From the NCBI GenBank assembly GCA_000309945.1, contig CM001633.1, positions 1,708,292 through 1,772,291 on the forward strand: a stretch of DNA of 64,000 bases. The letters are read 5' to 3'. This document shows positions 5,495 to 41,728 of the stretch, in pieces. Position numbers and translations under genes: made by a program. Numbering within the stretch: the first letter of the stretch is position 1; every line of letters starts with the position of its first letter. Under the pieces are notes generated by a model that was given only the letters and a program-made list of their open reading frames with translations, was not told where the DNA came from and did no database searches. Source of the DNA: Leptolyngbyaceae cyanobacterium JSC-12. GTDB lineage: Bacteria; Cyanobacteriota; Cyanobacteriia; Leptolyngbyales; Leptolyngbyaceae.

Positions 5495-7438
5495 ATGGTT
5501 AATACTTCAGCACCCACAGACGTTCGTAAAGTTTCAAAAATTGAAGCGCTTAAAGAGCGCAGCAATTTCTTAAGAGAACCAGTTGCCTCTGAGCTTTTGT
5601 TAGATACGACTCATTTTTCAGAAGATGCGATTCAGATTTTGAAGTTTCACGGGTCTTATCAGCAAGATAACCGGGACAATCGCATTAAAGGACAAGAGAA
5701 AGATTACCAATTTATGCTGCGGACTCGTAGCCCCGGTGGGTTTATTCCACCAGTGCTATACCTGACGCTTGATCGCCTGGCTGATGAGTATGGTAATCAT
5801 ACCCTACGAGCCACTACTCGCCAGGGATTTCAGCTTCACGGCATCTTGAAAAAGAATTTGAAGGCAGCGATCGCGGCGATCGTTCGCAGCATGGGATCAA
5901 CGCTAGGAGCATGTGGGGATCTGAACCGCAATGTGATGGCTCCCCCCGCCCCTTACAAGAATCGCCCAGAATACCAATACGCCTGGGAATATGCCAATAA
6001 TGTGGCAGATTTACTTACGCCACAGACTGGAGCTTACTACGAGATCTGGCTGGACGGCGAAAAGGTGATTTCAGCCGAAGAAAATCCAGAGGTGGTCGCG
6101 GCACGGCAACGCAATGGCAATGGCACTATCTTTCATGATTCACCAGAGCCGATTTATGGCACCTACTACATGCCCCGCAAGTTCAAATGTGCAGTCACAG
6201 TGCCAGGTGATAATTCCGTTGATTTGTTTTCGCAGGATGTCAGCCTGGTTGTAATTACAGACCAATCAGGAGAATTGCAAGGCTTCAACGTTTATGCAGG
6301 GGGTGGATTGGGACGGACTCATGGCAAGGAAGACACCTTTCCCCGAGTAGCAGATGCCATTGGCTATGTCGATAAAGCCGATGTCTATGACTTGATGAAG
6401 GCAATTGTGGCAACCCAGCGGGATTATGGCGATCGCGGCAATCGTCGCCATGCCCGGATGAAATACCTCCTGGAAGACTGGGGGGTGGAACGCTTCCGTG
6501 CCCAGGTAGAAGAATACCTGGGTAAACCTATCCACCCGATGAAACCCACGCCCAAATTTGAGTTTCTCAATTTCCTCGATTGGCATGAGCAGGGAGACGG
6601 CAAATGGTTCCTCGGCATCTCTATCGAAAACGGGCGAGTTAAGGACGAAGGTGATTTTCAACTCAAAACAGCACTGCGAGAGATTGTGCAAACCTTCCAC
6701 CTGCCCATGCGGTTAACACCCAGCCAAAATGTCTTGCTGTATGATATCAACTCTGCTGACAAAGACACTATCCAGCAAATTCTTGATCGCTATGGTGTGC
6801 AGCGCCCTGCCCAGATCGACCCAATCGTAAGGGATGCAATGGCATGCCCTGCCTTACCAACCTGTGGATTGGCAACGACCGAGTCTGAGCGTGTGATTCC
6901 CAGCATTTTGGCACGCATTCGGGCATTGCTCGATCAGGTAGGGTTGCCCGATGAACATTTTATTATTCGGATGACAGGCTGCCCCAATGGATGCGCTCGT
7001 CCCTATCTGGCAGAACTGGCGTTTGTGGGGAATGGTCCCGGCATTTACCAGGTTTGGGTAGGGGCGTCTCCCAATCAAGACCGCCTTTCCAAGGTCTATG
7101 TGGAAAAGATGCACGTCGATGCACTAGAAACCACGTTGGAACCTGTGTTTGCCTTTTTCAAAAATGCCCGTCACACGGGTGAACGTTTTGGTGACTTCTG
7201 CGATCGCGTTGGAGTGGAAGCAATCCAAGCATTTGCAGCAACCTATCAACCAGGGGGTTTTGCCACAGTATTGGAAGAACCCACGAGTAAGGTACCTGCT
7301 ACAAGAAAGGTACGGCGACGGGTGACTGTGCGAGAGGATATTTACGTGCGCTTGCAAGCAGCCGCAGCCAAGCATGGTAAACCCATTAGCCATCTGGCAA
7401 CCGATGCAATTGAGGCGTATCTCAAAACACTGACCTGA
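5495..7438 (+). CDS. sir: Ferredoxin-dependent sulfite reductase
   Basis: 647 residues catalysing six-electron reduction of sulfite to sulfide with ferredoxin, a step of assimilatory sulfate reduction. The siroheme/4Fe-4S ligands are visible as Cys451-x5-Cys457 and Cys496-x3-Cys500 ([11 protein letters not shown] and [12 protein letters not shown]). Earlier conserved blocks include [25 protein letters not shown] and [16 protein letters not shown] 5495 ([11 protein letters not shown]...) is chosen because residues further upstream lack similarity. The last roughly 45 residues form an extra tail: a basic stretch, then [20 protein letters not shown] and a helix ending EAYLKTLT, resembling a ribbon-helix-helix DNA-binding module. 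RsmE starts 3 bases after the stop, so the two are probably co-transcribed. Confidence 0.95.
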
Positions 7439-7440
7439 TT

Positions 7441-8214
7441 ATGCTGCAGCGTATTGTGGTGGATCCTGCCCATATCCACCCACCCACGGTCAGTCTCACC
7501 TCTCATCAATACCATTACCTATCGCGCGTGTTGCGGCTGAAACCTGGCGATCACTTCATTGTCATGAATGGGCAGGGATGTTCCTGGCTTGCCATTTTGC
7601 AGGATTCTCCAACTTCTGAGGGATTTCAAGCCCAGCTTATTGAAGCGATCGCCACTCAAACTGAACTGCCTGTTTCTGTTACGTTGGTCATCGCCCTGCC
7701 CAAAGGAAATGCCCTGGATGATGTAGTGCGACAAGCTACGGAGTTAGGCGTGACCTGTTTTGCTCCAGTAATCAGCGATCGCACCCTGCTCAACCCTAGT
7801 CCTCAAAAACTGGAACGCTGGCGACGCATTGCCCAGGAAGCGGCTGAACAGTCCGAACGACAACAGGTTCCCACCATTCTGGAACCTATTTTGTTCACTG
7901 AACATCTCCAGAAAGTCATCCAGTTTTCTCCGTCCAACCCCCATTACTTCTGCGTTACCCGCTATCATGCTCCCCTTTTCCTCCCTCGCCTCCTAACTTC
8001 TAACTCGTTCCCTTCTGCCCTTTCTGTGGCAATTGGTCCTGAAGGCGGCTGGACAGAACCAGAAATCGCCGCTGCGATCGCCGCAGGCTACCAACCCGTT
8101 TCCCTAGGTGCTCGGATCTTACGAACGGTGACTGCCCCAATCGTTGCCCTCTCGTTGATCACTGCTGTGTACGAAGGGGGTATGGTAAATCAGGGAATAG
8201 GGAATGAGAAATAG
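7441..8214 (+). CDS. rsmE: 16S rRNA m3U1498 methyltransferase RsmE
   Basis: 257 residues of the SPOUT superfamily. It methylates N3 of U1498 in the 16S rRNA decoding centre with S-adenosylmethionine. Evidence: an N-terminal PUA-like region (QYHYLSRVLRLKPGDHFIVM), then the trefoil-knot motifs IGPEGGWTEPEI (about residue 198) and LGARILRTVTAPIVAL (about residue 222). The position often occupied by Glu in RTET is Val here. Between the domains, near residues 180-193, a Pro/Leu/Ser linker (LPRLLTSNSFPSALS) is encoded by a pyrimidine-rich repeat-like stretch. The C-terminal ten codons read into a GGGAATAGGGAATGAG repeat. It lies 3 bases after sir. Confidence 0.93.
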   Translation: MLQRIVVDPAHIHPPTVSLTSHQYHYLSRVLRLKPGDHFIVMNGQGCSWLAILQDSPTSEGFQAQLIEAIATQTELPVSVTLVIALPKGNALDDVVRQATELGVTCFAPVISDRTLLNPSPQKLERWRRIAQEAAEQSERQQVPTILEPILFTEHLQKVIQFSPSNPHYFCVTRYHAPLFLPRLLTSNSFPSALSVAIGPEGGWTEPEIAAAIAAGYQPVSLGARILRTVTAPIVALSLITAVYEGGMVNQGIGNEK

Positions 8215-8228
8215 GGAAAGAGATCGAG

Positions 8229-9299
8229 ATGCTTGATCAAGTGGCAGCAGCATTTGAACGCCATGATTATGAAACAGCAAGCCAATTGCTGCGGGAATTG
8301 GTGAAACAAGCACCACATGATCCATGGGTAAAGCTATATGTTGGGCGTTTGCAAGAAGCATCTGGTAGAGGGAAGGCAGCCGAGCAAATTTATCGGCAGC
8401 TTTTGCAACAAAGTACAAACTCTAAGCTGGTTTCTCAGGCACGGCAGGGATTGCAACGGGTTACGACCCAGGAACAACCACGGCAGCAACCCGCTATCGC
8501 CCAGGCAACGGCACAACCCAGCAGCCAGGAACTAGGGTTTTTGATTTTGGAAGCAGTAATGGCAGAAGCGCGGACTGAGATAGGGCAGCGACTTGCCCAA
8601 TTGCTTAAGACTGATACTTACACAGCAAGAGGGTTACTGCCCAGTCGAGGATGGCGACTGTATCGAACTGGAACAATTGAAGAACTTGCATTGTTTGGGC
8701 AGGCGTTGCAACAGGCTGGAGTTTCTGCGTTTTGGGCTTCGCTGGCAGAACTGCAAAGCATCCAGGTGTTTCAGGTGAACTACATCCAAGCGCTACAACC
8801 TAAAGCTACGATTGTTTGCCGGAATCAGACGCATCAGGTAGGAATGCTGAGTTTTGAGTGGTCAGAAGTGCAGCAGCGTGTTGAGGGCTTGCTCCCGCTG
8901 TTTTCACAGGTGGTGGATCTGGGTTATCGCGATCGCCTGGAATGGAAAGAACACATTGAAGACTATGCCCACTTTTATGACCTCCACCTGCCAGCCAAGC
9001 GTTGCATTTTGCGATTGCACGATGGCAAGTATGACTTTCACCAGGGCATCACGGCACAAGAGCACCACGACACCATTCGTCAACGCTGGAACGAGTTAAT
9101 CACCATCATGAATCAAGCGATTCCACCCAGCCCTATCCAGTCAGAGTTCACAATTTTTTCCGAAAGTACGAGCGATTTTGCCACAGCACTGGAACGATTA
9201 CCATCCCATATGTTTTTGTCTCGCTCATCAGACTGTCATCTCGATCCAGCTTTTCATCTCTACAGCTGTTTAGCTTTACTAAAGCTGCGACATACCTAA
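8229..9299 (+). CDS. TPR-containing conserved cyanobacterial protein
   Basis: 356 residues starting at ATG 8229, 15 bases after rsmE. Residues 1-75 form one or two tetratricopeptide-like helix pairs (ERHDYETASQLLRELVKQAP, then LQEASGRGKAAEQIYRQLLQ). A Gln/Thr/Pro linker (about 78-98) leads to a 250-residue domain with a repeated theme of LLPSRGWRLYRTGTIEELALFG and RCILRLHDGKYDF. I do not recognise that domain. No signal peptide or membrane segment is visible, so it is probably cytoplasmic and a scaffold or regulatory protein. It seems to end the sir-rsmE transcript. Confidence 0.75.
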   Translation: MLDQVAAAFERHDYETASQLLRELVKQAPHDPWVKLYVGRLQEASGRGKAAEQIYRQLLQQSTNSKLVSQARQGLQRVTTQEQPRQQPAIAQATAQPSSQELGFLILEAVMAEARTEIGQRLAQLLKTDTYTARGLLPSRGWRLYRTGTIEELALFGQALQQAGVSAFWASLAELQSIQVFQVNYIQALQPKATIVCRNQTHQVGMLSFEWSEVQQRVEGLLPLFSQVVDLGYRDRLEWKEHIEDYAHFYDLHLPAKRCILRLHDGKYDFHQGITAQEHHDTIRQRWNELITIMNQAIPPSPIQSEFTIFSESTSDFATALERLPSHMFLSRSSDCHLDPAFHLYSCLALLKLRHT

Positions 9300-33402: not shown

Positions 33403-35196
33403 TTATAATTCAAACATCACACCATTGTGGGCTGTGAGATTAGGGTTGTAGTAAGGATCGCAATATTGCAGACTTTCAAAATAGCCTTTCCATTTGGTAT
33501 TCAAGTATTCCCACTCTTTAGGACGTAGTCCCGGAGCACGGCTGACTGATTCGTAATGCACCAGTTGGGCGTAGGGCGTTACCACATTGCGATAACCTGC
33601 TTGGTGTGCCTTCAAGCATAGATCCACATCGTTATAGTTGAGGGGAAATGTTTCGTCCATGCCGCCCAGTTCAAAAAACACCTGCCGCCGTATCATCAAG
33701 CAAGCTGCAGTGATCACCAGGTAATTGCGATTGACTAGATTGGAGAGAAAATAACCGGGGTGATCTCCCTCTGCTTCTCGAAAAGCGTGTCCGGCATTGC
33801 CATTGAGCACCATCACGCCTACATGCTGAATTCTGCCATCAGCAAAGAACAGTTTGGCTCCCACCGCTCCAATTTCGGCTTGTTGAGCAAACTCCAGCAT
33901 GGACTCTAACCAGTCGGGGGTAAGTACTTCCACATCATCATTGAGTAATAAGAGAATGTCTCCGGTCGCTGCCTGGGCACCTAAATTGATGCGTTGGGAA
34001 AAATTGAAGGGGTCGGCACAGCGCACCAGTTTTAAGTCATTCCCTTTTACAACATCTAAAACTAAATCGGGCACGTCATAGCCATCCACCAGCACAATTT
34101 CAAAATTACGGTAGGTGCTGCGATCGCGAATACTACGAATACACTGCTCTAGTAAACAAATGGTTCCAGTGGGTGTTTTCAGGGTTGCGCCACCACTAGG
34201 AATCACAATGCTGATCCGCGGATTGCCAAGAATCTCCCGCCGCACTCGAAAAAAACCCTCTCGCGGACCCGCCTCCACTCGCCCTGGATAAGGGCTGCGT
34301 GTCACCATTTCCTCCAAGGCTCGCCGTGCTGCTTCATACGCCCACGGTTTCGCTTCATGGCTGGAAGTCACCGATGCTGGAATCACCCGCCAGTGATAGA
34401 GAATTTTGGGAATGTGGTAGATGTTCCGTGTTTTCTCCACGACCCGCAGCACCAGATCGTAATCTTGAGAGCCATCAAACCCTGGACGAAATCCACCAAT
34501 TTCACGAATTAAGCGAGTGCGATATACCCCCAGGTGACAGGTATACATGCAGGCGTGAAAATAATCGGGTGACCAATCGGGTTTGAAGAACGGGTCAGTG
34601 CGTTTGCCTGCAGTGTTAATTTTGTCTTCATCGCTGTAGATGAAATCGGCATCGGGATGTTGATTAATCAGCTTGGCGTTTTCGTACAACGCTGCGATCG
34701 CCAGTTCATCATCATGATCCAATAGGGCAATATAATCTCCCGTCGCCAGTTCCAGCGCAGAATTGCTGGCAGCGACGATGTTGCCATTTTCTTCCCGAAA
34801 CACAACCTTAATCCGAGAGTCGAGGTTGCTGTAATAGGTTAGTAAAGGTTTGATATGGGAAGCGGTCGAAGCATCATCAGCGATACACAGTTCCCAATCA
34901 GGATAGATTTGGTGAATAACTGACTCAATCGCTTTCTTGAGCCATTGTTCTTCCACGTTATATACCGGAAGAATAACGGAAAATTTGGGACGGAACTCCC
35001 ACTCTGCAATTTCTTGCCTTGCCCGGGCAATCTGAGCAGGGCTCCACCTCTGCCGTGCCATCCACTGCTGATAAGTGAGCCGCTTGCGAAAGCGAGCCTC
35101 TAACCGGGCATAGACAAAGTGAATGAATCCTCGTGTTCCACGTTCACGCCAAGCCTGATACAGTTTGCTAAACTTCTTAAACAAAGCGGAAGACAC
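33403..35196 (-). CDS. Two-module GT2 family glycosyltransferase
   Basis: 597 residues with two GT-A domains in tandem. Module 1 (about 65-300): KFSVILPVYNVEEQWLKKAI, CIADDAS, and the DxD-like region ALLDHDDELAIAAL, ending YHWRVIPASVTSS. Module 2 (about 330-590): PRISIVIPSGGATLK, EIVLVDG, LLLNDDVEVL, and NYNDVDLCLKAHQAGYRNV. Proteins of this make-up lengthen O-antigen or other surface polysaccharide chains, one module per linkage. It is the last gene of the minus-strand sugar cluster and starts 52 bases after the preceding GT2 gene. Cytoplasmic side of the plasma membrane is expected. Confidence 0.88.
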   Translation of the reverse strand: MSSALFKKFSKLYQAWRERGTRGFIHFVYARLEARFRKRLTYQQWMARQRWSPAQIARARQEIAEWEFRPKFSVILPVYNVEEQWLKKAIESVIHQIYPDWELCIADDASTASHIKPLLTYYSNLDSRIKVVFREENGNIVAASNSALELATGDYIALLDHDDELAIAALYENAKLINQHPDADFIYSDEDKINTAGKRTDPFFKPDWSPDYFHACMYTCHLGVYRTRLIREIGGFRPGFDGSQDYDLVLRVVEKTRNIYHIPKILYHWRVIPASVTSSHEAKPWAYEAARRALEEMVTRSPYPGRVEAGPREGFFRVRREILGNPRISIVIPSGGATLKTPTGTICLLEQCIRSIRDRSTYRNFEIVLVDGYDVPDLVLDVVKGNDLKLVRCADPFNFSQRINLGAQAATGDILLLLNDDVEVLTPDWLESMLEFAQQAEIGAVGAKLFFADGRIQHVGVMVLNGNAGHAFREAEGDHPGYFLSNLVNRNYLVITAACLMIRRQVFFELGGMDETFPLNYNDVDLCLKAHQAGYRNVVTPYAQLVHYESVSRAPGLRPKEWEYLNTKWKGYFESLQYCDPYYNPNLTAHNGVMFEL

Positions 35197-35248
35197 GATT
35201 AATCACCTACAAGGATGCAATAAAAAATGAAGAATTAACTTGAGCAAT

Positions 35249-36157
35249 CTACTCAGCCGCAATCAAGGGATCAACAGGTTCAACATTAGAACCAAGCCAT
35301 TTGCGGAGTTTGTTCCAGCGATGCTGTGTTCGCCACCAGCAACTACTTTGCACCGTATCCGCGATTGCCAGCATCCGCAACTCAGTCTGATGCAACTTCT
35401 GGTGAGCTGTTTGGGCATCATTCCTCAGGTCAATTAAATGCTGAAACAGCACTTCAATGTGATCACTGTAAAGCGCTAGGTGATTTTTAAAGATTTGGGT
35501 GTAACTTTTCACCCAATGATCTTGCGTCATTTGCTGACTGCGAGAATTAGGCACTTCTCGATGGAAATACAACACCTCTGAGATTTGCACCACATCCCGC
35601 CCCAGTTCGATGAGCGATAGCCAAAAATCGTAATCCTCCCAGCCCCAAACCATATTTTCCTGGTAGCCTCCCACTTTTTCCCAGTCGGCTTTGCGATACA
35701 GGCTGGTATTAAAGATCATATTGCCCAGCAAGATTTCAGGAAAACTATAAGTTGGTAAATCAAAACGTCCATCTCGACTGCCAAATAGTTCTGCTTGAGA
35801 GTAAACAATCCCTACATTTGGGTCAGCCTCTAGGATGGGAACTGCTTTTTCGAGGAAGGTGGGTGCAATGCGATCGTCTGCATCAAGAGGAAGGATATAT
35901 CGCCCCTGCGATCGGGCAATGCCCTGATTGCGGGCAGATGCAGGACCCGAATTTTCCGTATGCAAAACTACAAGCTTGGGCTTTTCGTAAGCTTGTAGGA
36001 GCTGGGTTGTTGCTGGATCAGTAGAACCGTCGTTGATAACAATGATCTCAAAATCCGAAAATGTCTGAGCCAGCACACTATCCACAGCCTCATCAATAAA
36101 TTGCCCCTGGTTATAACAGGGCATAATGACTGAAACAGTAGGAGAGAACAAACTCAT
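35249..36157 (-). CDS. GT2 family glycosyltransferase
   Basis: 302 residues. GT-A fold signatures: VSVIMPCYNQGQFIDEAVDS, EIIVINDGSTDPATTQLL (nucleotide-sugar Asp) and YILPLDADDRIAPTFLEKA (DxD metal motif), followed by an acceptor-side region with MVWGWEDYDFWLSLIELG. The C-terminal 80 residues are mostly helical, with a coiled region (RNDAQTAHQKLHQTELRM). The start codon ATG at 36157 overlaps the stop of the preceding GT2 gene by 4 bases. Sugar donor and acceptor unknown; a role in the same surface polysaccharide is inferred from the operon. Confidence 0.9.
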   Translation of the reverse strand: MSLFSPTVSVIMPCYNQGQFIDEAVDSVLAQTFSDFEIIVINDGSTDPATTQLLQAYEKPKLVVLHTENSGPASARNQGIARSQGRYILPLDADDRIAPTFLEKAVPILEADPNVGIVYSQAELFGSRDGRFDLPTYSFPEILLGNMIFNTSLYRKADWEKVGGYQENMVWGWEDYDFWLSLIELGRDVVQISEVLYFHREVPNSRSQQMTQDHWVKSYTQIFKNHLALYSDHIEVLFQHLIDLRNDAQTAHQKLHQTELRMLAIADTVQSSCWWRTQHRWNKLRKWLGSNVEPVDPLIAAE

Positions 36158-36978
36158 ATTGTTTTGGGGTTTGCTTCAGGCGATGCCATGCTGTCTGTAG
36201 AGCGGTATCGTAATGGGTGACAAATAAACTGGGCGCTTGTCACAATTCCTACCTTATGCAGGGAGTAGCGAAATAGTAAGCCCAGAATTCCCAATCCATA
36301 AATCACACTCCCGACAAAGCTCAGGCTAGAAGCTTCTGGGAAGTATCGGGTTGGCACATGCACATCTCCAATTCGGAAGCCACCCGCTACGAACTGCGCC
36401 ACGATTTCCTGGTCAAAAATAAATTTGTCAGAATTCGCCAGGAAGTTCACGGCTTCTAGCGCTTCTCGACTGTATGCCCGATAACCTGTGTGAAATTCGG
36501 ACAACTCCAGCCCAAACACTTTATTCTCCAGCCAGGTTAAGAAGACGTTGGAGATATATTTCCACCAAGGCATCCCTTGTTTGAATGCCGATATACCTTT
36601 CATCCGTGAGCCAAAAACCACATCATACCGACCTTCCTGGATGGGACGGACGAGTTCTGGCAGCAGCGTAGGATCGTATTGATAGTCGGGGTGCACCATA
36701 ACAATAATGGATGCTCCATCTTTCAGGGCTTCCAGATAGCAGGTTTTTTGGTTGCCCCCGTATCCCAGGTTCCACTTGTGCGCAAACACCTTTAAGCCAA
36801 GCTGTTGCGCAATGTAGATAGTATCATCGCGACTACCATCATCGACCAAAATCACACTATCTACGGTGTCGTGTGGTAAATCATCGTAGGTGGTTTTGAG
36901 GGTTTTGGCTGCATTGTAGGCAGGCATTACTACCACGATTCGATGTTGGGTTTGAGTAACCGCAGGACTAGGGTTCAT
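36154..36978 (-). CDS. GT2 family, dolichyl-phosphate-mannose-synthase-like glycosyltransferase
   Basis: 274 residues from ATG 36978, preceded by GAGGAG, which decides this start over 37008. VVVMPAYNAAKTLKTTYDDL, SVILVDDGSRDDTI and IVMVHPDYQYDPTLLPELV are typical of polyprenyl-phosphate glycosyltransferases (DPM1/ArnC-type, GT2). ISVMKGISAFKQGMPWWKYI-like text (GSRMKGISAFKQGMPWWKYI) and EFHTGYRAYSREALEAV follow. A hydrophobic stretch near the C-terminus (SVIYGLGILGLLFRYSL) may lie at the membrane. It overlaps the methyltransferase before it by 11 bases and the glycosyltransferase after it by 4. Confidence 0.88.
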   Translation of the reverse strand: MNPSPAVTQTQHRIVVVMPAYNAAKTLKTTYDDLPHDTVDSVILVDDGSRDDTIYIAQQLGLKVFAHKWNLGYGGNQKTCYLEALKDGASIIVMVHPDYQYDPTLLPELVRPIQEGRYDVVFGSRMKGISAFKQGMPWWKYISNVFLTWLENKVFGLELSEFHTGYRAYSREALEAVNFLANSDKFIFDQEIVAQFVAGGFRIGDVHVPTRYFPEASSLSFVGSVIYGLGILGLLFRYSLHKVGIVTSAQFICHPLRYRSTDSMASPEANPKTI

Positions 36979-37684
36979 ACACTCCTCGAAGAATAAATTG
37001 GAACGCAAGCAAACCTTTGAACGTGGAAGCTAGAAACGCATTGAACTGATGGATAGGAAACAGAGGTTGCTTCTCTCCAAAGATGGGATGGACTAATGGT
37101 AATGGCACGGGTGTAACTCCCACTGATTGTATGCGGACACCGCAGTTAGCGCATAGTTGCTGTGCGGTTCGCAAGGTAAAAAACCGGAGATGGGTTCGAT
37201 CTAGAATGCCGCGGTCGCTGTATTCAAATCTGCCTAAGAGCAAATTGAGTCGCACATATAGATGGGCAACATTAGGCAGGGAAATGATAACTGGAGTGCC
37301 TGGTTTGGTATAACGCTGCAGTAAACCGATCAGTACGGTTTCAGGGTCGGGTAAGTGCTCCAGGACATCTGCCAGAACAATAGCATTAGGAGGCTGAATT
37401 GGGAGTATGAACGCTTGAGTCAGGTCGGCTGGATAAACCTCATCGTACTGCTGTCGGGCTTTCTCGGCTAAATCTGGATCTCGCTCGACACCAATTAAAT
37501 AAAAGTCAGAACTGGGAAGAAATTCTCTTAAAAAACCGGATGCACAGCCGATATCCAAGATGCGGAATGGGTTCAGGGAAGTTGCTGCCAGACGCCGAAG
37601 TTGCATCGCTATCTGAGCGTGGGATGAGAATCGATCTTGCTTCAGCAAATACGGGGAGTCCCCTTCCATAGCCATCACTTCCAC
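36968..37684 (-). CDS. Class I SAM-dependent methyltransferase of a surface-polysaccharide operon
   Basis: 238 residues. Motif I RILDIGCASGFLREFLP, an acidic strand-2 end (LIGVERDPDLAEKA), NAIVLADVLEHLPDPETVLI and PVIISLPNVAHLYVRLNLL identify a Methyltransf_11/23-type enzyme. From memory the same order is found in bacterial exopolysaccharide methyltransferases. The substrate is unknown; methylation of a sugar or capping of a chain is plausible from the downstream glycosyltransferases. It appears to be the first gene of the operon (37684 to 33403). ATG 37684 or ATG 37672 could start it. Confidence 0.82.
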   Translation of the reverse strand: MEVMAMEGDSPYLLKQDRFSSHAQIAMQLRRLAATSLNPFRILDIGCASGFLREFLPSSDFYLIGVERDPDLAEKARQQYDEVYPADLTQAFILPIQPPNAIVLADVLEHLPDPETVLIGLLQRYTKPGTPVIISLPNVAHLYVRLNLLLGRFEYSDRGILDRTHLRFFTLRTAQQLCANCGVRIQSVGVTPVPLPLVHPIFGEKQPLFPIHQFNAFLASTFKGLLAFQFILRGVYEP

Positions 37685-37815: not shown

Positions 37816-38199
37816 CTACTGGTCATTGCGTTCTCGTTCAGATAGAGAGGCTGGTGAGTTTAAGCGTTGCAACAGCAATTGAATGGCTAGTCCCAGTAGT
37901 CCGATCGCGGCAATTCCAAACACGCCCGTTCCCAATGTGGTCATGCCCACAACTAGCGTCCGCACGGCGGAAGAGATACGCTGAACAATCAAACTGGTGG
38001 ACTGGATTTTGTGCGCGGCAAATGACTGGGCGATCGCATGAGTCATTAAATACATGGCATAGGCAAGCACAGTTGCCAACATGCTACCGATAAGACATCG
38101 CAGGGGTGTAATTGGCGGGTTGTCTGAGTCAGACCTATCCGAGTTAGACTCACCAGAGGGCAGCGAAGGAGCTTCTACTGTGGGGGGAACCTCAGTCAT
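37816..38199 (-). CDS. DUF3082 family membrane protein
   Basis: 127 residues. A Ser/Asp/Pro-rich N-terminus is followed by ITPLRCLIGSMLATVLAYAMYL (helix 1), a conserved loop AIAQSFAAHKIQSTSLIVQRISSAVRTLVVG and a second hydrophobic region (GTGVFGIAAIGLLGLAIQLLL). This layout is that of DUF3082, found in cyanobacteria and plastids, function unknown. The gene lies between the glycosyltransferase operon and the STAS-transferase gene on the same strand, with gaps of over 100 bases on both sides, so it may be transcribed alone. Confidence 0.75.
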   Translation of the reverse strand: MTEVPPTVEAPSLPSGESNSDRSDSDNPPITPLRCLIGSMLATVLAYAMYLMTHAIAQSFAAHKIQSTSLIVQRISSAVRTLVVGMTTLGTGVFGIAAIGLLGLAIQLLLQRLNSPASLSERERNDQ

Positions 38200-38311: not shown

Positions 38312-39409
38312 CTACATTGCACCGGAATTCTTATTAAAGATAACCCAGATGGTTTTGAAGATTAGTTCAACATCATATCTCAGGCTCCAGTTTTCTTGAT
38401 ACCTCAGATCGAGCCGAACAATGTCCTCAAAATTCTTCACAGATGAGCGTCCATTCACCTGCCATTCACCCGTCATACCCGGTTTGATGTCCAACCGCTG
38501 CCACTGCAAAATCTCGTACTTTTCTACTTCATCAGGTGTGGGAGGACGAGTCCCCACTAGACTCATCTCGCCTTTTAGCACATTCCAAAATTGGGGTAAC
38601 TCATCCAGACTGGTTTTTCGTAAAAAGCGACCCACTCGTGTAATTCGAGGATCGTTTTTCGCCTTAAAAATAGCTCCTTCTGCCTCATTTTGCACCAAAT
38701 GCTTTTTTGCTTCGGCATCTGTGCACATCGAGCGAAACTTCCACATTTTGAAGCGCTTACCCATTTGGGAACAGCGTACCTGCCCAAAGAAGATTGGTCC
38801 AGGGCTGTCAAGCTTGATGGCGATCGCGATAAATGGAAATAGGATCGCTGTAATGATTAATCCAATTACTGCTCCCACTACATCCATTACTCGCTTCGGG
38901 ACAGATTTAACCGATGGATGAGTAATGAAGGGCTGTTCCTCTGGTTTAATCCGGCTGATCAACCGTTTTGGTGTAAGCTTGGCAACTGGTGAACTCAGGG
39001 ATGCAGTCGTCTCTCTGGGGGCACAATCGCTGGGTAGATTAGAGGCAGACGTTGAAGCAGAGGGTTTTGGAGCAGGTGGAGCTTGCTCAATCACAAAAAA
39101 CTTATCCAGGTCAGCCAGGGCAAGAGCTGACAACACTTGCTGAGAAACATTTTGCAAAACCAACTCAAACCCCTGTTTTTGAGCCAGCTTACGGCTTGCC
39201 ACTAATGCACCAATCCCGCTACTGTCCATGAATTTTGTTTCACTAAAATCTAACGAGACATGGGTCAGATCTGGATTGTTTTGACAGGCTTGCTGGAAAC
39301 TTTGCTTAAACTCCAACGCCTTCTTCACGGTAAAAACAGGCGGCATACTAATCCGGCAGGTTTTTTCCAGAATTGTGACTTGACAGTCGTTTCCGTTCGA
39401 TTCAACCAC
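38312..39409 (-). CDS. STAS domain fused to a polyprenyl-phosphate sugar-1-phosphate transferase
   Basis: 365 residues. Residues 1-105 form a STAS (anti-sigma-factor-antagonist) domain with THVSLDFSETKFMDSSGIGA. Ser63/Ser64 after Asp62 lie at the place phosphorylated in SpoIIAA-type proteins. A Pro/Ser-rich linker (106-160) leads to a bacterial sugar transferase domain: KRVMDVVGAVIGLIITAILF (membrane helix), SPGPIFFGQVR, KMWKFRSM, RITRVGRFLRKTSLDELPQF, GEMSLVGTRPPTPDEVE and RLDIKPGMTGEWQVNGRS. It starts polysaccharide synthesis by moving a sugar-1-phosphate to undecaprenyl phosphate. Most homologues have four or five N-terminal membrane helices; here the STAS domain replaces them. Confidence 0.9.
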   Translation of the reverse strand: MVESNGNDCQVTILEKTCRISMPPVFTVKKALEFKQSFQQACQNNPDLTHVSLDFSETKFMDSSGIGALVASRKLAQKQGFELVLQNVSQQVLSALALADLDKFFVIEQAPPAPKPSASTSASNLPSDCAPRETTASLSSPVAKLTPKRLISRIKPEEQPFITHPSVKSVPKRVMDVVGAVIGLIITAILFPFIAIAIKLDSPGPIFFGQVRCSQMGKRFKMWKFRSMCTDAEAKKHLVQNEAEGAIFKAKNDPRITRVGRFLRKTSLDELPQFWNVLKGEMSLVGTRPPTPDEVEKYEILQWQRLDIKPGMTGEWQVNGRSSVKNFEDIVRLDLRYQENWSLRYDVELIFKTIWVIFNKNSGAM

Positions 39410-39547
39410 AGTTCTAGCTCAACTCTGTAGAGGACAATTAGAAGAACAAAATCTCAGGCTATTGGCAGATTTCAGCACCGTCAACTCAGGTCACATCAGA
39501 CGTTTTAGCTTTGATATTACTCAGTTCAATAAAGCTTTGTCACGAGA

Positions 39548-39629
39548 AGTAACCAACTCTTAAACTAGATAACACGTCACGTCTTACACAAGTAACCAAC
39601 TCTTAAAAAACACGTCACGTCTTACACAA
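39548..39629. repeat. Two tandem imperfect repeats upstream of the STAS-transferase gene
   Basis: AGTAACCAACTCTTAAA followed by AACACGTCACGTCTTACACA occurs twice (39548-39590 and 39591-39629). The first copy carries a 4-5 base insertion (CTAGAT) relative to the second. The units lie between the SDR gene end and the STAS-transferase start, in its probable promoter region. Confidence 0.75.
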
Positions 39630-40757: not shown

Positions 40758-41342
40758 TTGCGGGTGTTTGTGGTGCAACCAGCATCAGACGGTAGCCATT
40801 CTGAAAATGATGACAGCGAGCTGGTGCAGCGGAGTCTCCAGGGAGATACGCAAAGCTTCCGGTTGCTCTATCAACGGCATCAGCAGCGGGTTAGAGCAAT
40901 CCTTTACCAGATTTGTGATGCATTCATGCTGGATGATTTGGTGCAGGAGGTATTTTTACGCGCCTGGAAGGGGTTACCCAAGTTTCGGCAGAATGCCAAG
41001 TTTTCAACCTGGTTGTACCGAATTGCCTGGAATGTAGCATCGGATCATCGGCAGGCAGCAGCGAAGGGGCGATCGCAATTGCAAACCCTCACAATCTATG
41101 CTTCTCTTCATCAAGAGTCTCCAGATGTTATGCATTTGCATTACCAGGACCTGGTACAGCGAGGACTGATCCACCTTAGTTTTGACCATCGCACCGTACT
41201 CGTCCTGCATGACTTAGAAGAAGTTCCCCAAAAAGAGATTGCTGAAATCCTGGAAATTCCGGTTGGAACTGTAAAATCTCGCTTATTTCATGCCCGTGCT
41301 GCTATGCGCCAGTTTTTGGAGAAAGAAGGAGTCCAACCATGA
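40758..41342 (+). CDS. ECF-family RNA polymerase sigma factor
   Basis: 194 residues. Sigma-70 region 2 is visible as SFRLLYQRHQQRVRAILYQI, then DDLVQEVFLRAWKGLPKFRQ and KFSTWLYRIAWNVASDHRQ. Region 4 is FDHRTVLVLHDLEEVPQKEIAEILEIPVGTVKSRLFHAR. Region 3 is absent, as in extracytoplasmic-function sigmas. The best start appears to be TTG 40758, with GGTGGAGGA just upstream; a GTG at 40764 is possible. The stop overlaps the start of the next gene by 4 bases, which fits a sigma/anti-sigma pair. Confidence 0.92.
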   Translation: MRVFVVQPASDGSHSENDDSELVQRSLQGDTQSFRLLYQRHQQRVRAILYQICDAFMLDDLVQEVFLRAWKGLPKFRQNAKFSTWLYRIAWNVASDHRQAAAKGRSQLQTLTIYASLHQESPDVMHLHYQDLVQRGLIHLSFDHRTVLVLHDLEEVPQKEIAEILEIPVGTVKSRLFHARAAMRQFLEKEGVQP

Positions 41343-41728
41343 ACTCATTTCCTGAAGATGACCACCAATTGAGTAAGTTCTTACAACAGAACCGTCCAAC
41401 AGTTCCGCCTGCTGCCGCGGATTTAGAAGAACGAATTTTAGCCATCATTGAAGAGACACCACAAGAAATGGCAACGCCTGAACGCTCTCGCCAGCGATCG
41501 CGGACTTTCCGACATCGAGGGATGTGGCTATTACCATCTGCCCTGGCGGCTGGCTTTGTGGCAACTGTAGTGGGGTATCAGTTTCTGATACCGCGTCAAC
41601 CAACAGAGGCAGAACTTGCAGAGTTAGAAACCTTCATTGAAACAACCTGGCAAGGAAATCTCGCTGAACAACCTACCAGCGAGTCGGAAGAATTGATTCC
41701 GTTACTGGATGAACCGCTCGTGAATTAA
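41339..41728 (+). CDS. Probable membrane-anchored anti-sigma factor
   Basis: 129 residues. An acidic cytoplasmic part (1-58) is followed by a single helix (WLLPSALAAGFVATVVGYQFL, about 62-82) and an acidic periplasmic tail of 45 residues. No zinc-binding HisCys motif is visible, so it is not a standard ZAS-type anti-sigma; the call rests on size, topology and a 4-base overlap with the sigma gene (ATGA). It would hold the sigma factor at the membrane until envelope stress. A Spy/CpxP-like gene follows, consistent with that role. Confidence 0.75.
   Translation: MNSFPEDDHQLSKFLQQNRPTVPPAAADLEERILAIIEETPQEMATPERSRQRSRTFRHRGMWLLPSALAAGFVATVVGYQFLIPRQPTEAELAELETFIETTWQGNLAEQPTSESEELIPLLDEPLVN

Follow-up and report, generated by a model that had tools for sequence, protein, structure and literature searches.

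The window analyzed here is a stretch of 64,000 nucleotides from the cyanobacterium Leptolyngbyaceae JSC-12 (contig CM001633.1, positions 1,708,292 to 1,772,291), and the gene on which we focus lies on its reverse strand (Table 1). The initial annotation had described the product as a STAS domain fused to a sugar-1-phosphate transferase (PGT), and this description was borne out by Pfam, by fold matches and by the existence of a conserved family with the same architecture. Pfam recovered both the STAS domain (PF01740, 48.4 bits against a cut-off of 22.6) and the Bac_transf domain (PF02397, 229.9 bits against a cut-off of 27), and the NCBIfam model TIGR00377 (ant_ant_sig) reached 44.7, which is under its cut-off of 53.45. 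By sequence as well as by fold the STAS part matched SpoIIAA, RsbV and TM1442, and the PGT part matched PglC and WbaP in the PDB. The AlphaFold2 model of the fusion (pLDDT 75.7, pTM 0.63) is unreliable in the linker that joins the two parts, where pLDDT values lie between 40 and 56 in blocks of 10 residues from residue 111 to 160. This linker is longer than in nearly all relatives, with residues 123–155 facing gaps in 45–46 of the 47 rows of the alignment; at its end T163, H164 and S166 are kept in all 47 aligned fusions.

Table 1. Features of the fusion gene and its surroundings, in window coordinates
Feature	Position	Strand	Remarks
STAS-PGT fusion gene	38312..39409	-	intact ORF of 365 aa, GTG start, stop codon included, no internal stop
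STAS domain	39086..39319	-	Pfam aa 31-108; fold about aa 10-110 in the model
Ser63	39221..39223	-	candidate phosphoacceptor in MDSSGIG (aa 61-67), from alignment
Linker	38918..39076	-	aa 112-164; ends in conserved THPS
Long helix of PGT core	38807..38902	-	aa 170-201; single long helix in the model
Bac_transf / monotopic PGT catalytic core	38336..38896	-	aa 172-358, PF02397
Asp269-Glu270	38600..38605	-	presumed position of PGT catalytic dyad
DUF3082 protein, next gene downstream	37816..38199	-	PF11282, 105.5 bits; not a kinase
Co-directed run	33403..37684	-	methyltransferase and three glycosyltransferase genes
Methyltransferase	36968-37684	-	
GT2	36154-37008	-	
GT2	35249-36157	-	
Double GT2	33403-35196	-	
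Sigma-70 family factor, two genes upstream of fusion	40758..41342	+	Sigma70_r2 68.4 bits, Sigma70_r4_2 53.6 bits
Two imperfect 32-nt direct repeats, upstream of fusion	39547..39621	.	81% alike, spacing 43

D269 and E270, which we take to be the catalytic Asp-Glu dyad of the PGT, are invariant in the 47 fusions, the copy in the window included. Only the STAS domain and the linker precede the core: PF13727 was not listed for the fusion at E-values up to 10, the NCBIfam models for WcaJ, WbaP and EpsZ all remained under their cut-offs, and TIGR03025 fell just short of its own (293.6 against 295.55). Small PGTs of the PglC type are described as consisting of the catalytic core only (PMC10942596, available portion), and these and the large WbaP/WcaJ enzymes, neither of which is described with a STAS domain, have the same monotopic core fold. 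The enzyme encoded in the window is a small core-only PGT with a STAS domain, lacking the four-helix bundle and the PF13727 region of the large WcaJ/WbaP type. It had been suggested that the STAS domain takes the place of the usual membrane helices; this applies to the additional helices at the N-terminus of WcaJ/WbaP-type enzymes, which are absent, but not to the long helix of the core, which is retained. Judging from the PglC/WbaP-type fold, the retained helix would be the membrane-embedded helix of the core, and the fusion as a whole is the probable starter of the synthesis of a surface sugar polymer.

An examination of the ORFs and Pfam matches of the window revealed no kinase or phosphatase adjoining the fusion. 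The run of genes co-directed with it may represent glycan genes, whose link to the fusion is putative. On the other side lie a short-chain dehydrogenase gene and, beyond it, the gene for the sigma-70 family factor, whose proximity makes a transcriptional role possible at this locus. An ORF of 129 residues overlaps the sigma factor gene and runs on behind it (40758-41728 on the forward strand jointly); it has no Pfam match, and one hydrophobic stretch was seen in it by eye, as in an anti-sigma factor. A search of the 112 further fusion loci (25 with a flank of 1.5 kb) recovered no relative of either the sigma factor or this ORF.

Distribution of the fusion and conservation of its STAS domain

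The best 80 loci of one species-genome scan contained at least 46 further full-length fusions; the initial annotation had proposed a search for other STAS/transferase fusions in cyanobacteria. A chance fusion or an assembly artefact, which we considered for the copy in the window, can be rejected on this count. All but one of the 46 carry cyanobacterial titles, and the fusion is a conserved, mainly cyanobacterial family. When 291 genomes of the phylum were searched, the fusion profile matched 69 of them (E-values up to 1e-115), a number that may miss some fusions as these were scored among the best 7 candidates per genome, and which includes one genome (G201) with the STAS and PGT parts in different frames.

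The single exception among the 46 titles is the gammaproteobacterium Rhabdochromatium marinum, whose fusion (L043, 8001-8957) is 53% identical to that in the window and has no RsbW-like kinase gene of the type described below adjoining it; the best match to that kinase in this genome scored 37 bits (G023). It was possibly transferred from cyanobacteria. In two further loci, L198 (6253-7286) and L086 (951-1948), the latter on a contig binned as Chloroflexaceae, the STAS and PGT parts are encoded in different overlapping frames with a kinase gene behind them, which is a frameshift in the gene or in the assembly. Other variants extend or divide the architecture. A 718-residue ORF in L203 (G219, 6224-8380, reverse strand) combines a GT28 C-terminal domain, an Alg14-like domain, the STAS domain and Bac_transf, and would combine the switch with the first and second sugar-transfer steps in a single polypeptide. 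L010, L050 and L053 have genes for separate proteins, Alg13/Alg14-like as judged by eye, upstream of their fusions. In Scytonema NIES-4073 (L063, 7394-8633) and Nostoc T09 (L070, 7477-8612) a stand-alone STAS protein with the motif DTSGLS or DSSGLT is encoded directly 5' of an unfused PGT, and these pairs are possibly a split version of the fusion. Behind the fusion of Trichormus sp. NMC-1 (L031, 9204-9782) lies a low-complexity ORF with 18 copies of GDGEMGRW, which is probably a DNA repeat array and not a gene.

STAS switch domains of the SpoIIAA/RsbV kind normally control bacterial gene expression. The serine of the D-S-S/T/A-G motif that is phosphorylated in SpoIIAA, RsbV and TM1442 aligns with Ser63 of the fusion, and on account of this alignment Ser63, and not Ser64, is the candidate phosphoacceptor, which narrows the earlier proposal that had named both serines of DSSGIG. 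Ser63 is present in all 110 non-identical STAS domains collected from fusions, a set in which 25 domains come from loci with a flank of 1.5 kb and those of L086 and L198 from frameshifted genes. The second serine is found in 108 of the 110, with cysteine in the other two, and the following glycine likewise in 108. In the alignment of 47 fusions, which includes the copy in the window, Ser63 is again invariant, and position 64 is serine in 45 and cysteine in two. A degenerate STAS domain lacking the conserved serine, the outcome that would have spoken against a switch, can be rejected for these relatives.

Kinase and phosphatase genes beside the fusion

Of the 46 related fusion loci, 11 have a gene for an RsbW-like kinase, here termed K1, 3' of the fusion on the same strand, counting a weak match of 94 bits in L050, as compared to none of the 33 loci from the same scan in which the PGT lacks a fused STAS domain (Fisher p 0.002). 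L086 has such a kinase gene, too. Pfam assigned HATPase_c_2 to the two K1 examples tested (PF13581, 83 bits in L036 of Microcystis), and the best PDB match of the profile of linked kinases was Bacillus subtilis RsbW (51 bits), followed by SpoIIAB (23 bits). Across the phylum, at least 30 of 77 fusion places, among them the frame-split one in G201, have K1 on the same strand no more than 1 kb downstream, and at least 20 of these within 100 nt; at two more places K1 is convergent or 2.5 kb off, respectively. At 46 of the 77 there is no K1 within 1 kb on either strand among the listed places. These counts, which used all 150 listed kinase places, are lower bounds set by the limited length of that list and by its E-value cut-off, and a subset chosen by eye gave the same result. 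For the 25 fusion loci with a flank of 1.5 kb, the absence of a kinase means little. One locus, L044 (8929-10122), carries two different K1 kinases in tandem 3' of a single fusion.

The co-occurrence extends to whole genomes. The K1 profile matched 96 of 291 phylum genomes (E-values up to 1e-20), apparently the same set as that searched for the fusion, and K1 was found in 65 of 68 genomes with a fusion versus 31 of the 223 others, raw counts in which shared ancestry and genome size are included and in which G201 is counted among the 223. Four fusion copies (L199-L202) have drifted motifs, DSSAII or DSSGVV, and K1 is missing from their loci; three of the genomes (G046, G102, G119) have no K1 anywhere at the cut-off, and the fourth (G106) has K1 beside its other, intact fusion copy. 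As far as can be read from these sequences, the drifted copies fit a kinase switch.

In family f7 the fusions with the highest scores, which fall together with named Nostocales loci, have no K1 nearby among the listed places and nevertheless keep Ser63. That the main f7 copies maintain the fusion without a linked kinase, among those places, is what one might see if the STAS domain were structural, dimerizing or anchoring the PGT in place of the dimerizing N-terminus of WbaP-type enzymes, or if it bound a small molecule, with no phospho-switch in either case. The extra N-terminal domain of WbaP is indeed described as stabilizing the dimer and responding to UMP (PMC10942596, available portion). 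We accord this explanation a small chance, as it leaves aside both the strict conservation of Ser63 and the kinase that repeatedly adjoins fusions and was not found near unfused PGTs. The linked kinases also make phosphorylation a simpler reading than a small-molecule STAS domain of the SulP-like kind.

A SpoIIE-type phosphatase completes the set in nine loci (L038, L041, L048, L123 and L188-L192), in which fusion, K1 and phosphatase are clustered. In L038, L041 and L048, which form one group, and in L188 the phosphatase gene directly follows K1, and PAS domains precede the phosphatase domain in both proteins tested (L038 of Laspinema and L188). L190 has a response-regulator phosphatase 3' of K1. 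In L189, L191 and L192 the order is fusion, K1, a stand-alone STAS gene and then a phosphatase on the opposite strand, and L123 is arranged in the same way. The initial annotation had proposed a search for linked HATPase_c (RsbW-like) or PP2C genes and would have taken the lack of any partner as a sign against its reading; both types of gene were recovered, K1 from clusters of the relatives and the SpoIIE-type phosphatase from some of these.

The stand-alone STAS genes in these clusters need further consideration. They follow the kinase in L189, L191, L192, L123 and L125, and lie beyond the phosphatase in L038, L041, L048 and L188. Two STAS partners per kinase are the expected look of a competition, and raise the prospect that information flows in reverse: the fused STAS domain would be a membrane-tethered decoy, with the state or membrane position of the PGT setting how much kinase is captured, such that the initiation of polysaccharide synthesis reports to the kinase and, through it, to a sigma factor or a different STAS protein. 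The sigma-70 factor gene two genes from the fusion in the window would be in keeping with this. However, many linked clusters (e.g. L016, L036, L170, L180) have no second STAS gene among their mapped neighbors, the sigma factor has no relative in the other 112 fusion loci (the 25 short-flanked ones included), and a decoy would not have to be joined covalently to an enzyme whose catalytic residues are all conserved. We consider this direction of control quite improbable, and retain the kinase as regulator of the fusion.

Candidate partners in the genome of JSC-12

Searching the genome of the window with the profile of linked kinases detected three kinases with 166, 73 and 27 bits. The 166-bit match, which is the K1 of this genome, is encoded at 1068334-1068753, 0.68 Mb from the fusion at 1.747 Mb. 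It stands head-to-head with a phosphatase combining Response_reg and SpoIIE domains, and the pair adjoins a gene for a hybrid histidine kinase of 1271 residues with an Hpt domain. Over almost its entire length the phosphatase shares 55–62% identity with those of L189-L192 and L197. In L197 (G239) such a head-to-head pair is situated near a fusion, with the phosphatase about 1.1 kb and the kinase about 2.5 kb away, and this locus is a bridge between the head-to-head pairs and the linkage with the fusion. The module of JSC-12 is, from these comparisons, probably split, with the enzyme at 1.747 Mb and the kinase and response-regulator phosphatase at 1.068 Mb.

Pairs of K1 and a response-regulator phosphatase are present, too, in genomes in which the search detected no fusion, among them G086 from the same family as JSC-12 (L225, L226), and some lie close to a stand-alone STAS gene (L226, L229). 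It follows that such pairs have other targets as well, and that the partnership of the fusion with the pair at 1.068 Mb is a matter of inference. The STAS domain may hence be an orphan in this one genome, with the pair serving another STAS protein and the fusion being unregulated or under a different kinase, a situation compatible with kinase control in the family at large. It is brought to mind by the lack of linkage in the window, by three genomes of the same family (G086, G211, G315) that have K1 and no fusion at the cut-off among the best 7 candidates per genome, and by the eight STAS matches in the genome, which leave seven besides the fusion as potential partners of K1. In the kinase tree, moreover, the K1 of JSC-12 falls among mostly unlinked kinases, a placement of weak support (85, open fork) in a tree where L120, L123 and L125 were entered as unlinked despite adjoining a fusion. 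Against these points, the DSSGIG motif is intact, this K1 resembles the linked kinases much more closely than do the other two kinases of the genome, and the five fusions nearest by path to that of the window are all kinase-linked. The last observation comes from a weak fusion tree with many open forks and an outgroup that does not hold together, and both trees serve as hints only for this reason. On balance we regard an orphan STAS domain in JSC-12 as somewhat unlikely. Across the family the partner-switching module has good support; in this genome it is putative.

A proposed switch and its relation to known systems

We think it fairly likely that the fusion is a priming small monotopic PGT for surface polysaccharide that is placed under post-translational control by a partner-switching pair. 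In this scheme the role of RsbV or SpoIIAA would fall to the fused STAS domain; the RsbW-like K1 would bind this domain and phosphorylate Ser63, and the SpoIIE-type phosphatase, driven by its response-regulator or PAS sensor part, would remove the phosphate. The phosphorylation state could then determine how active or how accessible the PGT is, and the output of the module would be a committed enzyme of glycan synthesis and not a sigma factor. Our guess is that the unphosphorylated STAS domain represents the ON state, which we favor by analogy as this state is reported for SypA and suggested for HmpV (PMC8256260). We infer the phosphorylation of Ser63 and its effect on the PGT, the nature of the polysaccharide made, and which partner serves the fusion in this genome. 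The idea, already voiced in the initial annotation, that the first step of polysaccharide synthesis is under partner-switching control gains support at the sequence level from the invariant serine, the kinase at 30 or more of the 77 fusion places and the nine clusters with a phosphatase, even as the copy in the window is without a linked partner.

The RsbU-RsbV-RsbW and SpoIIAA-SpoIIAB-SpoIIE systems share with the present one a STAS domain with a phosphoacceptor serine, an RsbW-like kinase and a SpoIIE-type phosphatase, clustered in some genomes, and differ from it in that here the STAS domain is fused to a membrane enzyme. Two systems related to polysaccharides are closer in theme. HmpU, HmpV and HmpW of Nostoc punctiforme are the phosphatase, STAS protein and kinase of a hormogonium motility and polysaccharide locus, and in Vibrio fischeri the STAS protein SypA and the serine kinase SypE control polysaccharide-dependent biofilm formation (PMC8256260, available portion). 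By these descriptions, on which our comparison is based, HmpV and SypA are STAS-only proteins, the former with no known target and the latter with a target reported as unknown, whereas in the fusion the STAS domain is joined to an enzyme and the presumed target is covalently attached.

A STAS-glycosyltransferase architecture as such is already known: according to a review, all4160 of Anabaena sp. PCC 7120 codes for a glycosyltransferase whose N-terminal part is a STAS domain (PMC8256260, citing Wang et al. 2007). Heterocyst envelope polysaccharide depends on all4160, among other genes, and its expression is down in sigC and sigE mutants (PMC4390870). The available portions of these two sources mention no kinase or phosphatase partner, and the architecture common to all4160 and our fusion is known from description and not from sequence. 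An Anabaena-like genome (G072) has three fusions, none of them at the place interpolated for all4160, a rough estimate from gene numbering relative to ntcA and hetR in a genome that is not necessarily that of PCC 7120. As for the enzymes, the small PGT CapM is cited as being activated through phosphorylation by a kinase, and PGTs are presented as gatekeepers that are likely regulated in pathways whose regulation is little understood (PMC10942596, available portion). A survey of titles and the beginnings of abstracts, mostly of papers outside subscription, uncovered no report of a kinase or phosphatase linked to a STAS-PGT fusion. What appears to be new, accordingly, is that familiar partner-switching parts are combined with an enzyme as the fusion partner of the STAS domain, where other systems have an output that is transcriptional or unknown.

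Taken together, we lean, if only slightly, towards a widespread cyanobacterial partner-switching module in which an RsbV-like switch is welded to a committed enzyme of surface polysaccharide synthesis as its output, instead of acting on a sigma factor. If this is true, an environmental signal could pass directly through a histidine kinase to a response-regulator phosphatase and on to the STAS-PGT, and slime production would start or stop within minutes, with no need for transcription. Through the additional STAS genes that several clusters contain, a single kinase would then be able to tune the PGT together with a second output. How cells ration the shared lipid carrier through the first enzyme of a glycan pathway is a largely open question, which a covalent STAS switch with an adjoining kinase would reduce to a two-protein system in vitro. 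The fusion would also represent a concrete type of target for STAS systems such as those of SypA and HmpV, with their targets described as unknown, and may offer a handle on the polysaccharides of cyanobacterial slime, sheaths, blooms and heterocyst envelopes.
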